Assembly (NCBI GenBank): GCA_017525015.1
Contig: JAFXUK010000004.1
Span: 229,107 to 293,106 of the forward strand
Reading direction: 5' to 3'
Source: Bacilli bacterium
Lineage (GTDB): Bacteria > Bacillota > Bacilli > RF39 > UBA660
DNA length: 64,000 nt
Below, in pieces: positions 11,920 to 51,122 of the stretch (the stretch's first letter is position 1; each line of letters starts with the position of its first letter). The notes beneath the pieces were generated by a model, which made no database searches, was not told the origin of the DNA, and saw nothing but the letters and a program-made list of their open reading frames with translations. A program made the position numbers and the translations under genes.

Positions 11920-13605
11920 CTATTTTGCTGATTTGTATAATTTTGTGAAATAACCATTTTTATCAAGTAACTCTTGGTACTTTCCTTCTTCTTTGATAAC
12001 ACCATCAACTAATACACAAATAGAATCTACATCCTTTATTGTTTCTAAACGATGAGCAATTACTATTAATGTTTTGTTCTCTAACTTTTCTACAATATTT
12101 TTCATTACTTCTTTCTCAGTTATGTTGTCAATTGCACTAGTAGCTTCATCTAAAATTATTATTTTAGAATCATCGAAGAATAGTCGTGCTAAAGCCACTC
12201 GTTGGCGTTCACCACCACTCATTCTTACACCTTTTTCTCCAAGTTCTGTGTCTAAACCTTTTTCTAACTTTTCATAGAACTTGTCTAAACATACTAATTT
12301 TAAAACTTTTAGTATTTCATCATCTTTTATTTTCTTATCAAAGATTAAATTTTCTCTTAAAGTTCCATCAAATATTGGTGCTTCTTGAGATACATAAGTA
12401 ACATTGTCATAAAATGAACTTAAGTTTATCTTAGATAACTCTTTTCCATCTATTAAAATGTTTCCCTCTTGGTATTTAACAAGTCCCATTATTAATTTGA
12501 TGATTGTTGATTTTCCTGAACCTGATTCACCTACTAAAGCTACAGAAGAATTGGCTTTTATTTTTAAAGATAGATCAGATATTATTTTCTTCTCATCATT
12601 GTAAGAATAAGATACATTCTTTAATTCTATTTCTCCATCTACTCTTTTTAAAACAATTCCTTTTTCTAAAGCTTCATCATCTTTGGTTTCTAATAAATCA
12701 ACATATCTTTTTACAGTTACCTTGTTTAACCTGTAATCTACATATTCAACATTGAAAATAGCAATTGGTTCATAAGCTTTACCAAGTAAAGCAATTACTG
12801 TTACAACAGCACCAACTGATAAATCAGATTTTAATACTGCATAAGCTAAAACAATTACTTGTAAAATATTAACTATTAATGCAAAAACAGAAAAGAATAT
12901 TTCATGTACAAGTTTTATTTTTGTTTTACCATCAACAATGTTTTTTATTCCTTCCTTAGTTATAGCTATTTCAGTATCATATTTCTTGTTTGTTCTGAAT
13001 ACTACTAATTCCATGAAACCTCTTATTAAATGTTTGTTTAATAATTCTTGGTTTAATAATATTCCTTCTTTTAATTTGTATAATCTCTTTAAGATTATGT
13101 TAGAAACTATAACAACTACTACATAGCCTAAGAAAACAAATAATACATATTCCCTCTTAACTCTGTAAATGAAAAACAAACTGAATAACGCTGTTGGTAA
13201 TAGATATCTTACTATCTTTAACCAAAAGTCCATCATTACATCTCTTGAAGCAGTGGCCCCATCTTCAACCTTTTGTGATAAGCGTCCTGTTCCAATTTTT
13301 TGATATTCTAAATAATCAATTGATTTCATTTTCTTTAAAGCTTGTAATATAAAATCTAAATATAACTTGTTCTTAACTTGTTGTTCTGGATAGTTTTCTA
13401 CATATTCTAATACTGTTGAAACGATTAGTAACACACCATAAATAACTAATGGCATTATTGTTAAAGTGTGAAATTGAAATGCATCAAGTATTTTTTGATA
13501 ATAAGTAACACTGTATAAACTTAAAAAGTTTATAACAATTCCGATTATTACATAAAAAATCATCATTTTTAAATTGTTTTTAATAACTTCTTTAAATATT
13601 TTCAT
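11920..13605 (-). CDS. ABC exporter half-transporter (fused permease and ATPase)
   Basis: A 561-residue type I ABC exporter: an N-terminal six-helix transmembrane domain (about 1-310) and a C-terminal nucleotide-binding domain. Walker A is GESGSGKST, the Q-loop is TYVSQEAP, the signature is MSGGERQRVALARL, Walker B is KIIILDEATSAID with the catalytic Glu present, and the H-loop is IAHRLETI. With one complete set of ATP motifs it should work as a homodimer. The substrate could be a peptide, lipid or drug. AAGGAAAG lies before ATG. The long leader upstream holds an upstream ORF and a terminator (see 13641-13726), which suggests inducible expression and hence a resistance or peptide-export role. 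Confidence 0.88.
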   Translation of the reverse strand: MKIFKEVIKNNLKMMIFYVIIGIVINFLSLYSVTYYQKILDAFQFHTLTIMPLVIYGVLLIVSTVLEYVENYPEQQVKNKLYLDFILQALKKMKSIDYLEYQKIGTGRLSQKVEDGATASRDVMMDFWLKIVRYLLPTALFSLFFIYRVKREYVLFVFLGYVVVVIVSNIILKRLYKLKEGILLNQELLNKHLIRGFMELVVFRTNKKYDTEIAITKEGIKNIVDGKTKIKLVHEIFFSVFALIVNILQVIVLAYAVLKSDLSVGAVVTVIALLGKAYEPIAIFNVEYVDYRLNKVTVKRYVDLLETKDDEALEKGIVLKRVDGEIELKNVSYSYNDEKKIISDLSLKIKANSSVALVGESGSGKSTIIKLIMGLVKYQEGNILIDGKELSKINLSSFYDNVTYVSQEAPIFDGTLRENLIFDKKIKDDEILKVLKLVCLDKFYEKLEKGLDTELGEKGVRMSGGERQRVALARLFFDDSKIIILDEATSAIDNITEKEVMKNIVEKLENKTLIVIAHRLETIKDVDSICVLVDGVIKEEGKYQELLDKNGYFTKLYKSAK

Positions 13606-13626: not shown

Positions 13627-13689
13627 AATTAATTGTGAACAAAAAAAGAACCTCCTTTCATAAACAGCAAAAAATCACAATTAATTGTG
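13627..13689 (-). promoter_or_regulatory. Palindrome and partial repeat that can form alternative leader structures
   Basis: CACAATTAATTGTG at 13676-13689 is a perfect palindrome. A second copy of its core (AATTAATTGTGAAC at 13627-13640) lies 36 bp away, between the terminator and the exporter start codon. On the RNA the two can pair with each other or fold alone, so two mutually exclusive structures are possible. Confidence 0.5.
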
Positions 13690-13714
13690 TTCTGCCATTC
13701 ATGAGGAGATTCTT
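13641..13714 (-). terminator. Leader terminator (attenuator) upstream of the ABC exporter gene
   Basis: On the minus strand AAGAATCTCCT (13714-13704) pairs with AGGAGGTTCTT (13656-13646) over 11 bp with one G-U, followed by TTTTT then G. The 47-nt loop holds a second stem (GGCAG/CUGUU) and the CACAATTAATTGTG palindrome. The 5' arm lies inside the upstream ORF at 13658-13726, and the 3' arm begins 1 nt past its stop codon. Confidence 0.65.
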
Positions 13715-13726
13715 AAGGCTCTTCAT
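13658..13726 (-). CDS. Upstream ORF / candidate 22-residue leader peptide
   Basis: The ORF begins MKSLKNLLMNGRTQ and ends IFCCL, stopping at TGA 13658-13660. AAAGGA precedes its ATG, although with short spacing (3 nt). Codons 5-8 (K-N-L-L) form the 5' arm of the downstream terminator, so a ribosome paused in or just after these codons would block the hairpin. This resembles leader-peptide control of drug exporters such as bmrB-bmrCD of Bacillus subtilis, as established for that system. That it acts this way here is inference. Confidence 0.55.
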   Translation of the reverse strand: MKSLKNLLMNGRTQLIVIFCCL

Positions 13727-13741
13727 TATTCCTTTAAACTT

Positions 13742-13764
13742 GCGTTTATCTGGTAGTAAAACGC
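13742..13764 (-). promoter_or_regulatory. Hairpin in the 5' part of the exporter leader
   Basis: GCGTTT and AAACGC form a 6-bp GC-rich stem with an 11-nt loop. A second stem-loop can form just upstream on the RNA at about 13776-13795. It may contribute to leader folding or mRNA stability. Confidence 0.4.
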
Positions 13765-13831
13765 GAATGGTCTAATTGATTTACTACAATCAAAATATAT
13801 CATACATTTTATCAATATACAAATTTTTCTA

Positions 13832-13840
13832 TGTTATAAT
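13832..13840 (+). promoter_or_regulatory. Extended -10 promoter of dacF
   Basis: TGTTATAAT, 24 nt before the dacF start; no convincing -35. Confidence 0.6.
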
Positions 13841-13864: not shown

Positions 13865-15103
13865 ATGAAAAAACTATTATTCTTATTAATATGCTTCTTT
13901 TCCCCATTAATAAGTTATGCTTTAGATTATCCTGAAGTTAATTCGCAAATGGTTGAAGTATATGATTTAACTGAAGGTAAAATTTTATACGAATTAGATT
14001 CTAATAATAAAGCTTCTATAGCATCTATTACTAAAATAGCTACAACTATTACTGCTATAGAAACAATTGATAACATAGATGAAAAAGTAACTATAACAAG
14101 TGATATCTTAAATCAAGTTAGTTGGGAAGCATCAACAGCTGGTTTAGAAGTTGGTGATGTTCTAACATATCGTGATCTAGTATATGCAACAATAGTAAAA
14201 AGTGGTGCAGATGCTGCTATATCACTTGCTGTACTAAGTAGTGGCGATACTGAATCATTCGTTGAAAAAATGAATAAAAAAGCCCAAGAAATTGGTTTAG
14301 AGCATACTCATTTCGAAAACGTAATTGGTTTAGATGATGAAGAACACTACTCTACTGCTGATGATGTTAGAAAACTATTAGAATATGCTCTAAAGAATGA
14401 ACTATTTAGAAGTGCATATACTACTAGAGATTATACTTTATCTAATGGACGTAAAATTAGTTCTACAATCTATACTTATAATAGAGGTGGTAGAGACACT
14501 TCTAAAATAATTGGTAGTAAAACAGGATTCACTTTAGAAGCCGGCTATTGCTTTACTTCTCTTAGTAAAGTAGAAGATCATGAAATGATAATCATCGTTT
14601 TAAAAGCCGAAGCTTATGGTGATGATTACTATAACATTATTGATACTATTGATTTAATTGATTTTGTTACTGAAAATTATAAAAATACAACTATAGTTAA
14701 TAAAGGAGACTTTAAAAAAGAAATACCCATCTCACTAAGTAAAACAGATAATTATACTATTAAATCTGATTCAACCATCACTAAGTTCTTACCTATTGAT
14801 TACAATAAAGATGATATCAAAATAAAATATGATGGTTTAGAAGAATTAAGCTATAAGAATAAAGAAGGTTCTAAAATTGGTGAAATAAAATACTACTACC
14901 AAGATGAACTATTAAAAACTGAAGAAGTATTAGTAAATGAAAAAATAACTCCTGATTATCTAAAAATTATTAAAACAAAATGGTTAAGTATTCTTCTTAA
15001 AACAATAGGAATTATATTCCTTATCTTCATCCTTCTAATAATCAGAAAAAAGATTAGAAGAATGAAAAGAAGAATGGCTAGAAAACGTAAAAAACGTTCT
15101 TGA
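13865..15103 (+). CDS. dacF: D-alanyl-D-alanine carboxypeptidase (serine-type, PBP5/DacF family)
   Basis: This enzyme trims the terminal D-Ala from peptidoglycan pentapeptides outside the cell. Residues 1-19 are a signal peptide. S54-I-T-K57 is the SxxK nucleophile motif. KSGADAA at about 112-118 is the SxN-equivalent (SGA rather than SGN, a known variant). SKTGFT is the KTG motif. A C-terminal beta domain follows, then one membrane helix (LSILLKTIGIIFLIFILLII) and a very basic tail, so the protein is anchored by a true helix rather than the amphipathic helix of PBP5. AAGAAGGGA lies before ATG. It is a single gene whose stop overlaps the -35 of the next promoter. Confidence 0.93.
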   Translation: MKKLLFLLICFFSPLISYALDYPEVNSQMVEVYDLTEGKILYELDSNNKASIASITKIATTITAIETIDNIDEKVTITSDILNQVSWEASTAGLEVGDVLTYRDLVYATIVKSGADAAISLAVLSSGDTESFVEKMNKKAQEIGLEHTHFENVIGLDDEEHYSTADDVRKLLEYALKNELFRSAYTTRDYTLSNGRKISSTIYTYNRGGRDTSKIIGSKTGFTLEAGYCFTSLSKVEDHEMIIIVLKAEAYGDDYYNIIDTIDLIDFVTENYKNTTIVNKGDFKKEIPISLSKTDNYTIKSDSTITKFLPIDYNKDDIKIKYDGLEELSYKNKEGSKIGEIKYYYQDELLKTEEVLVNEKITPDYLKIIKTKWLSILLKTIGIIFLIFILLIIRKKIRRMKRRMARKRKKRS

Positions 15104-15550: not shown

Positions 15551-17125
15551 TTATTCCCATTCATACGTGTTTTTTTCAACTTTAGGTTGATATACAGTAC
15601 CAGTAAACCATACTTCACCAGTTGCTTTATCTCTAATAATATACATATATGGTTTATCAAAAGTTAAATCAATTCTCTTAACAGGAACTTCATAGAAATA
15701 ATCAAATCCACCATTAGCTGATCCTCTACCACCCATAGCTGTAGCTGCAGCTGCTTTGATACCTTCATTAGAAAATTCAATATTTGCTTTATGAACAGCA
15801 GTATCAATATAAGTCTTAGTAGATGATAACTTAGATAAATCTGCTTTAGATGAATCAAATACATCAGTAATACCTATTGCTTTAAGATCATCCATTAACT
15901 TTAATTCATACTCATAATCAAACATTGGAATATAACCATCAATAATAGTTATGTAATCTTCTTCAAAACTATCTAATTCAATATTCTTTAAATTACCTAT
16001 AAGAGTATTTAAATCTTTAGCACTAGTCTTATCTATATAAGTAGCTAACTTAGTTTCTTTTGGCATTATACCAACATATTGTAATGTTGTACCATTATAT
16101 GGTTTTAAATCTTTAGCAAATACTTTTACATCATCATCAACATAGAACATAAAATCAGTAGAACTACTTACATGTTTATAAGCACCCTTTAAATCATCCA
16201 TATAAGTATCAATATTAAATGGTGAGTAATAATCTTCTTCTCTATGTGTCTTTTTCCATTCTTCATATTCTGCTAATACAGTTTTACGAATATTTGCTTC
16301 GCCTTCTTTAGTTACAATATCATATCTATTAGCAATAGCAGATATATCAGCAGATTTAACAGTATCTTTAGAACCTTCAAATTCTAATTGATGATATCCA
16401 CCAGAATCTAAAGGTGATACATAAGCTCCTACCCAGCCATATTCTTCTTCAGAACCTTGTTCTTTTAAATGTTTAAAATGAACATTATAATCTTCATGCT
16501 CGCTTTGAATCTTTTTATTCCATTCCATATCAATAGCTAAAGCATTAACTAAAACATAATCTAAGTCAGAAACATCATCCATTAAATTAGGAATTAATTT
16601 AAATGTTTTACCACTTACCCAATCATTTATTACTTTAGGTGATTTAAATTCATCGAACATTACTTCAGCATTATATACATTCTTTAAATTAGAAATATAA
16701 TCCTCTTTAACTGAATCTTTAAAACTATTTCTAATAAATAAAGCATTAGCAAATGACATATTATTACTATTAACATACTTCTTAGCAGTATATTCACCAA
16801 TAACAGCATCTAATTGAGCTTTAGTATCACCATCAGCTCCTTCAGCTAACATTTCCAAAGCATACTTAATAGATAATGGACTATAAATTTTATTTTCTTC
16901 ACCATTCTCTATTTTTAAAAATGCTAAGTCAAATTCACTTAATGAGTTATCTAACATTTTTAAATCTGACTTAATAGTCTTTTTAGATTCATGTGATTCA
17001 GTATTACTTCCTTCATCACCAAATAGTTTGTCTTTAAATATAAATAAAAAACCACCTGCAACTACCAATATTACTACTAATAATATTGGAATAATAACCT
17101 TAACCTTTCCTTTCTTTTCTTCCAT
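15551..17125 (-). CDS. Membrane-anchored serpin (serine protease inhibitor)
   Basis: Serpins trap proteases by inserting their reactive loop. Residues 8-31 are an N-terminal membrane anchor, so the inhibitor faces outward. Serpin landmarks are IYSPLSIKYALEMLAEGADG (80-99), INDWVSGKT (166-174), LVNALAIDMEW (192-202) and the C-terminal DKPYMYIIRD...FTGTVYQP (490-514). The hinge NEGIKAAAATA at 453-463 has the small-residue run needed for loop insertion, which argues for an active inhibitor, although P14 is Ile instead of Thr/Ser. The loop beyond it (GGRGSANGG, 465-473) is longer than usual and counting puts P1 near 467-469. A charged insertion of about 100 residues lies at 205-320. The target protease is unknown. 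Confidence 0.88.
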   Translation of the reverse strand: MEEKKGKVKVIIPILLVVILVVAGGFLFIFKDKLFGDEGSNTESHESKKTIKSDLKMLDNSLSEFDLAFLKIENGEENKIYSPLSIKYALEMLAEGADGDTKAQLDAVIGEYTAKKYVNSNNMSFANALFIRNSFKDSVKEDYISNLKNVYNAEVMFDEFKSPKVINDWVSGKTFKLIPNLMDDVSDLDYVLVNALAIDMEWNKKIQSEHEDYNVHFKHLKEQGSEEEYGWVGAYVSPLDSGGYHQLEFEGSKDTVKSADISAIANRYDIVTKEGEANIRKTVLAEYEEWKKTHREEDYYSPFNIDTYMDDLKGAYKHVSSSTDFMFYVDDDVKVFAKDLKPYNGTTLQYVGIMPKETKLATYIDKTSAKDLNTLIGNLKNIELDSFEEDYITIIDGYIPMFDYEYELKLMDDLKAIGITDVFDSSKADLSKLSSTKTYIDTAVHKANIEFSNEGIKAAAATAMGGRGSANGGFDYFYEVPVKRIDLTFDKPYMYIIRDKATGEVWFTGTVYQPKVEKNTYEWE

Positions 17126-50903: not shown

Positions 50904-51122
50904 AACTAGTCTTCATCCACAAGGGACGAAAACTAGTTAATTCCGCGGTACCACCCAATTTACTACTTAGTAGTCACTTTATATATAACGGCTTACACCG
51001 GATTATATTTCTATAATCAACTCCTGAGTGTCTTCATATATTTATCATTTTCTATTTCCACCAACCATAGAATCTCTATAAATTACAATATATTACTCTT
51101 CTCAATCAACATTTATACACGT
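50904..51122 (-). promoter_or_regulatory. T-box leader of aspS with Asp (GAC) specifier
   Basis: The T-box sequence GGGTGGTACCGCGG lies at about 50944-50957, with TGG in the bulge that pairs with the tRNA CCA end. The specifier codon GAC is at 51030-51032 in the context GAAGACACTC of stem I. The terminator AACTAGT...ACTAGTT (50904-50938), with an inner stem TTCGTCC/GGATGAA, is followed by TTTTATTTT. Uncharged tRNA-Asp should stabilise the antiterminator and switch on aspS. Confidence 0.93.

Follow-up and report, generated by a model that had tools for sequence, protein, structure and literature searches.

A structured leader RNA before ABC exporter and methyltransferase genes of probable gut Bacilli, a candidate orphan riboswitch controlling transcription termination

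The exporter locus and its leader

The window, a 64,000-nucleotide stretch of DNA that probably comes from an uncultured gut bacterium, encodes on its minus strand a 561-residue ABC exporter half-transporter whose nearest NCBIfam model is MsbA, with a score below the model cut-off. Upstream of it lies a divergent D-Ala-D-Ala carboxypeptidase-like gene (13865-15103) that has its own TGTTATAAT box at 13832-13840 on the plus strand, so that the gap of about 78 nt bears two back-to-back promoters. A membrane-anchored protein, which looks serpin-like, is encoded at 15551-17125 on the minus strand. The exporter and the leader with its promoter comprise the following features.

11920..13605, minus strand: ABC exporter half-transporter (561 aa), the gene predicted to be controlled by the leader RNA
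13794..13799, minus strand: -10 box TATATT, with a TG extension at 13802-13801
13787-13641, minus strand: structured leader RNA, from comparison of 38 elements
13753..13787, minus strand: P1 hairpin, 13787-13780 pairing with 13760-13753, with a large conserved loop CAAUUNG..YYAUUCGCG
13765..13770, minus strand: 5' strand of PK1, CCAUUC, in the P1 loop, pairing with GAAUGG
13735..13748, minus strand: P2, a variable hairpin, 13748-13744 with 13739-13735
13715..13734, minus strand: S1 (P3), class I, holding Shine-Dalgarno (SD)-like bases, 13734-13731 with 13718-13715
13719..13726, minus strand: 5' strand of S2, AUGAAGAG, containing the AUG read as leader start and pairing with the S2 3' strand
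13701..13708, minus strand: 3' strand of S2, CUCCUCAU, adjoining PK1 inside the terminator 5' arm
13695..13700, minus strand: 3' strand of PK1, GAAUGG, shared with the terminator 5' arm, pairing with the P1 loop
13646..13714, minus strand: intrinsic terminator hairpin, 13714-13690 with 13672-13646, 10 and 15 bp around a 2-nt bulge, with a 5-bp tip
13675..13690, minus strand: strands a (13689-13685) and b (13686-13675), forming the terminator-tip hairpin in the predicted fold, b pairing with a through 13680-13676
13641..13650, minus strand: U-tract, read from the sequence
13627..13638, minus strand: strand c, past the U-tract, complementary to b over 12 bp in the window
13658..13726, minus strand: 22-codon 'leader ORF', an open frame whose coding sequence is not conserved

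A sequence-only reading of this DNA had described a 22-codon ORF after an AAAGGA, a terminator hairpin with a U-tract whose 5' arm holds codons 5-8 of that ORF, and an exporter start 35 nt further on. The ORF (13726-13658, minus strand), the position of its codons 5-8, the U-tract (13650-13641) and the exporter ATG at 13605 are all as described. The hairpin is present as well, although the 11 bp given to it were too few for the minimum-energy fold (10 bp, a 2-nt bulge, 15 bp and a 5-bp tip); the 3' partner of the stretch that includes codons 5-8 (13655-13646 in the predicted fold) sets in 2 nt past the ORF stop. The terminator, the U-tract, the ORF and an alternative pairing discussed below make up the 3' half of a more extensive structured RNA of the minus strand: the approximately 60 nt 5' of the ORF (13787-13727), missed at that time, belong to the same conserved element. 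The segment 13780-13600 folds at -45.8 kcal/mol (z = -4.6), whereas dinucleotide shuffles average -29.5 kcal/mol and none of 200 is as stable.

The predicted transcription start, G13787, is the first base of P1 and lies 7 nt past the -10 box. When the region 4-10 nt upstream of P1 was searched in 38 elements (see below), the best -10 box ended 6 nt before P1 in 34 of them, and TATAAT was matched at 5 or 6 of its 6 positions in 32, compared with 16% of 1777 background positions. The -35 box is weak in the window (3 of 6), and a perfect TTGACA with a spacing of 16-18 nt occurs in 15 of the 38 elements (13 of them at 17 nt). Given the fixed distance of the -10 box and these TTGACA boxes, the RNA most likely begins at P1. 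Where the sequence-only reading had considered a transcription start 3' of 13640, the predicted promoter thus lies upstream.

At the leader, no Rfam 15 match attains the cut-off of its family; within the window, the scan matched only a T-box leader (50919-51118, minus strand, 131.6 bits) and a tRNA, both elsewhere. In a low-threshold scan of the leader the best match was mir-4477, at 23.1 bits against a cut-off of 74. No description of the element was recognised among the open PMC papers listed, judged by their titles, abstracts and the passages considered.

Relatives, downstream genes and covariation

Scanning one genome per species yielded 19 loci. Fourteen have exporters of 71-84% identity; the other five have distant ABC proteins (L015-L019, at most 33% identity over part of the query) and were left out of the analysis. 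The leader is present at all 14 exporter loci (L001-L014), and no Rfam 15 match at these loci overlaps it; elsewhere in them are an OLE RNA truncated at the end of its locus (L013, 7455-7683) and a glmS ribozyme (L005, 5014-5157). The sources of the 14 loci are labelled as Clostridia, Bacillales, Bacilli, Clostridiales, Erysipelotrichaceae, Clostridiaceae and Bacillota MAGs, and several are from goat, sheep or deer guts. One exporter, 83% identical, carries the name Acholeplasma sp. CAG:878. The group presumably corresponds to order RF39 of GTDB.

We searched further with three covariance models, one of the full length (R1) and two of the core, built from 26 (R2) and 38 (R3) elements, on overlapping genome samples. 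R1 matched in 15 of 291 genomes of one family (one match being a fragment), in 8 of 36 genomes of a second family, and in 2 of 5 and 2 of 18 genomes of two genera. R2 matched in 10 of 385 genomes of the order, the fragment from the R1 search among them, and in 2 of 395 genomes sampled from the class, while the single R3 match in 363 genomes across the phylum was the seed genome itself. Weak relatives may be missed in these counts, as searches of more than 40 genomes used stricter filters and scored only some ten candidates from the first look at each genome. The element is rare, and its distribution is narrow.

The comparison set comprises 38 complete elements, the window and 37 relatives. Repeat places were counted once (L020-L033, L064, L065, L069, L071, L072, L082, L088 and L090), opposite-strand matches of the palindromic terminator were excluded from the counts (L035-L043 and L046-L048), and L044, L045, L049 and other matches with E above 0.1 were left out. 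All 38 rows bear the anchor letters that the script required; among the full-length model matches at the thresholds used, only L060/L073 failed these. Two fragments that lack P1 were also left out. One (L060, the same place as L073, in G185) is a 3'-half copy that directly follows a promoter-like stretch and precedes a tRNA gene, and the other (L034, G012 contig C37) is a 3'-half copy before a gene that reads as FAD-dependent-oxidoreductase-like. These copies suggest that the element moves or decays. The plasmid search gave no match, and the phage search gave three weak partial matches at E = 0.5. A viral origin was also considered: a degenerate core pattern matched two IMG/VR contigs, both inside a coding gene, presumably thyX, and these matches were taken as chance.

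The element precedes the ABC exporter in 20 of the 38 cases and an unrelated class I SAM-dependent methyltransferase in the other 18. From the GGUU that heads the U-tract, the distance to the gene start is 21-96 nt, or 212 nt in L004, where about 170 bp are inserted between the U-tract and strand c. Homologues of the methyltransferase (E of 1e-30 or better) were found in 5 of 241 genomes of the order, and inspection of the approximately 270 nt read upstream revealed no element in four of the five. The exporter (E of 1e-120 or better) was found in two of the 241; in one of them the element is present, and in the other the contig end truncates the locus. The predicted fold of the methyltransferase (mean pLDDT 91.8) resembles many methyltransferases; the 50 matches listed act mostly on small molecules and show 12-20% identity, so that the fold names no substrate. 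Genes that read as GNAT-like acetyltransferases lie near the element and the methyltransferase in L054, L058 and L067, which may hint at a detoxification cluster. By inspection, both S1 subtypes and both main forms of PK1 are found before both genes, as expected if the signal is the same.

At the level of aligned sequences, the comparison establishes P1, PK1, the terminator and their overlap, together with the position of the promoter and the association with the two genes. Over 25 pairs, 94.8% of 915 cells in the 38 elements are paired, compared with 28-52% when the strands are slid by 1-3 columns, and 14 of the 25 pairs show changes on both sides, a count that ignores kinship among the elements. 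P1 is paired in 96.7% of cells, with changes on both sides in six of its eight pairs. Fitch parsimony on midpoint-rooted trees of the downstream proteins assigns to P1 14 double changes, four breaks and three restorations, and to PK1 five double changes and one break. P2 is paired in 91.3% of cells, with both-side changes in 4 of 4 pairs (26 rows). S1, formed by AAGG/CCUU in the window and by AGGUU/AACCU in other relatives, is paired in 96.2% of cells, with both-side changes in three of four pairs in the first alignment; in the 38-element alignment the share is again 96.2%, with both-side changes in 4 of 4 pairs and 5-6 gapped rows set aside.

In a partner-swap test, the mean pairing energy of the elements' own strands was reached in 0 of 10000 permutations for P1, PK1, the terminator arms and b with c, and the rows no worse than the swapped mean numbered 36, 37, 30 and 37 of 38, respectively, statistics that again ignore kinship. 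The pairing of b with c is the alternative pairing of the sequence-only reading, 13686-13675 with 13638-13627 (12 bp); it held up in all this, the own partner beating swapped ones across the 38 elements (own mean -11.05 compared with -7.50 kcal/mol). In L061 the terminator arms are re-paired, as CUUUUC/GAGAAG. Conditional transcription termination before the exporter, as had been proposed, gains support from arms that fit their own partner and from the promoter upstream.

The outer pairs of PK1 vary among the 38 elements as CC/GG, UU/GA, UC/GA, CU/AG and UC/GG. The evidence for PK1 lies in these two pairs, because the AUUC and GAA letters served to find the elements. Thirteen elements have GAAUGA, and seven of them retain the terminator partner GCUG, giving an A.C mismatch, while the P1-loop partner fits; PK1 therefore appears to be selected for itself. 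More generally, anchor letters (AAUU.G, AUUCGCG, A[GA]AAUCU, GAA... and UAAU.) served to delimit the elements, and part of the invariance of these letters comes from that choice; none of the covarying positions falls within them. We consider P1 and PK1 well supported. The unpaired bases CAAUUNG, GCG, AUA and AGAAU are conserved and look like a putative binding core, some of their letters having been search anchors.

S2 was seen in several folds made without the terminator 3' arm and was then checked in the 38 elements. Its general form is AUGAxGAG with CUCxUCAU. At least six of its eight pairs form in all 38 elements and at least seven in 36, compared with at least seven pairs in 3 of 2195 other 8-mers from the same leaders. 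Its energy swap test was not significant (own value reached in 635 of 10000 permutations), because G-U pairs tolerate exchange, and parsimony counts three double changes, five restorations, five breaks and eight changes between unpaired states. S2 is the weakest helix, moderately supported, mainly by complementarity.

These observations bear on one account of the locus, a plain constitutive terminator with a repeat-rich spacer and no regulation. Switching is a prediction from sequence, which such an account would accommodate, but P1, PK1, the loop bases and the promoter spacing are conserved in 38 elements before two types of gene, and we regard it as the least probable of the explanations considered, with hardly any weight.

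The short ORF and the ribosome

The elements fall into two classes by the S2 5' strand. The 31 elements of class I all have the AUG, and in 26 of them an SD-like stretch pairs with a typed anti-SD at -5.1 kcal/mol or better. The seven elements of class II (L059 and L075-L080), all of which precede the methyltransferase, have none: AUA replaces AUG and is re-paired with UAU, so that the class II strand AUARAGAA pairs with UUCUUUAU at 8 of 8 positions. The pair at the AUG position is G-C in 30 elements, A-U in seven and G-U in one. In class II, P1, PK1, S2 and the terminator are kept, no Shine-Dalgarno was seen, the anti-SD pairing being -0.4 to -2.4 kcal/mol, and by inspection P2 is missing from five of the seven. 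In class I, the upstream ORF (uORF) has 2-45 codons in 30 of 31 elements (four codons in 12, two in L009), and in L005 the leader frame stays open into the exporter; weak SDs are seen in L005, L009, L061 and L068.

The sequence-only reading had proposed that a ribosome stalled in the leader peptide is the sensor, and had looked to relatives for covariation of the terminator arms together with conservation of the ORF. Across the 38 elements the covariation was found and the ORF conservation was not, and sensing within the peptide is not supported, as neither peptide nor length is conserved and seven of the 38 have AUA and no Shine-Dalgarno. The conserved RNA helix can explain the AUG without translation, and the leader peptide looks like a by-product of structure.

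The systems closest to the element with respect to its short ORF are bmrB and vmlR, as far as the portions of the published accounts considered here describe them. The bmrB-bmrCD operon shares a terminator before a multidrug ABC exporter and a predicted anti-terminator pairing, but bmrB is a translated 53-codon ORF that contains the terminator (PMC4191407); a conserved or constrained leader ORF of this type was not found across our 38 elements. In the vmlR leader of B. subtilis, a short uORF inside a hairpin is combined with a terminator and an alternative pairing in the read-through RNA, and regulation needs initiation on the three-codon uORF while tolerating codon variants (PMC9226507).

A ribosome-mediated attenuator in the manner of vmlR would thus require only the start, not the codons, a drug-stalled ribosome on a very short uORF masking the terminator 5' arm. 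Such a mechanism would fit the AUG of every class I element, the SD-like stretch in 26 and the four-codon uORF in 12, has the vmlR precedent, and would suit controlled genes that may serve detoxification. Against it, vmlR requires its uORF start, as that account describes it (PMC9226507), whereas here the start is absent in seven of 38 elements, which have AUA and weak anti-SD pairing yet retain P1, PK1, S2 and the terminator. The spread of uORF lengths, with L005 running into the exporter, and the four weak SDs also argue against it; P1 and PK1, the conserved core, are not needed by the mechanism, and the AUG is explained by S2 pairing. We consider it unlikely as a general explanation, although the ribosome could contribute in class I, which has never lost the AUG.

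The conserved loops and the mutually exclusive terminator would also fit a protein or another RNA that reads the leader, stabilising the P1/PK1/S2 fold in an antitermination of the LicT/BglG type. A small gene that reads as AbrB-like follows the methyltransferase in the class II loci L075, L076 and L079, and could be taken to favour such a factor. No recurring regulator gene was seen by eye in the other 3-kb loci listed, the neighbours of L001-L014 excepted, and bglG-cis-reg scored only 15.3 bits against a cut-off of 80 in the low-threshold Rfam scan. A factor of this kind seems to us improbable, somewhat more so than the ribosome.

A candidate ligand-responsive antiterminator

We favour, with reasonable though far from complete confidence, the reading of the leader as a cis-regulatory orphan riboswitch candidate that controls termination, in which a putative ligand-stabilised P1/PK1/S2 fold lets transcription into the exporter. 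As in riboswitches, the leader is a conserved, structured 5' region with covariation, and its predicted expression platform overlaps and would exclude the putative aptamer fold, the 3' strands of PK1 and S2 lying in the terminator 5' arm. The RNA would probably act as a ligand-activated antiterminator.

In the proposed mechanism, the RNA probably begins with the first P1 base. During its synthesis, CCAUUC of the P1 loop would pair with GAAUGG, and the S2 5' strand AUGAAGAG with the adjacent CUCCUCAU. The 3' strands of PK1 and S2 jointly occupy 13708-13695, so that, of the 25 nt in the terminator 5' arm, 14 would be engaged in the PK1 and S2 state, with at most 6 bp left at the terminator base. 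The order of synthesis would favour this folded state first. A ligand, probably a toxic small molecule, would stabilise it and allow read-through into the exporter (an ON switch), while the terminator would win without ligand; the same element before the SAM-dependent methyltransferase would answer the same signal. We infer the ligand, the direction of the switch and the purpose of both genes from this arrangement, and the ON direction is not certain, because PK1 alone, without S2, could still let the 10-bp terminator base form. Strand c matches b of its own element specifically, yet it is made after the termination decision; it may hold the read-through RNA open or protect it.

The known systems closest in operation, judged from portions of their published descriptions, are the guanidine-IV riboswitch and Gd4v. 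Guanidine-IV has a hairpin that pairs with the terminator hairpin and acts by antitermination as a transcription ON switch (PMC7736828, PMC11611296). In guanidine-IV and Gd4v, a pseudoknot connects two hairpins, and the loop of the second holds conserved bases (PMC7736828, PMC9788692); Gd4v, reported as enriched in guts, bears an extra hairpin on the terminator tip (PMC9788692). By these descriptions, our element shares the pseudoknot from hairpin to terminator, the exporters and modifying enzymes downstream and, with Gd4v, the tip hairpin, and it could be a highly diverged relative. The comparison, made by descriptions only, also shows the partner here to lie in the arm and not in the loop, S1/S2 to be an extra pseudoknot, the genes to be different and the group to be narrow, while the terminator tip loop of our element is not conserved; we consider such kinship very improbable. 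In its possible role only, the element recalls the yjdF riboswitch, a leader RNA for which binding of diverse azaaromatic compounds has been reported (PMC4793209), but no Rfam family reaches its cut-off at the element. The smtA motif, described in the portion of the source considered as over 350 nt long and exclusive to Thioalkalivibrio (PMC11109978), was ruled out.

Short ORFs with a ribosome site before a terminator call for caution, as they can be by-products of a helix conserved in the RNA, and only a comparison with relatives shows this. More tentatively than the riboswitch candidate itself, and as a proposal that may well fail in some part, we suggest that gut Bacilli possess a new class of riboswitch, one that directly recognises a toxic or drug-like molecule and turns on a pump or a disarming methyltransferase. 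The device would be a compound pseudoknot, made of the P1 loop and of S1/S2, with the terminator's own 5' arm supplying the 3' strands, and its two forms would differ in whether the helix happens to contain an AUG. If the leader binds a ligand, it would represent a new riboswitch class and would point directly to the substrates of the exporter and the methyltransferase, two uncharacterised proteins of bacteria known chiefly through gut metagenomes.
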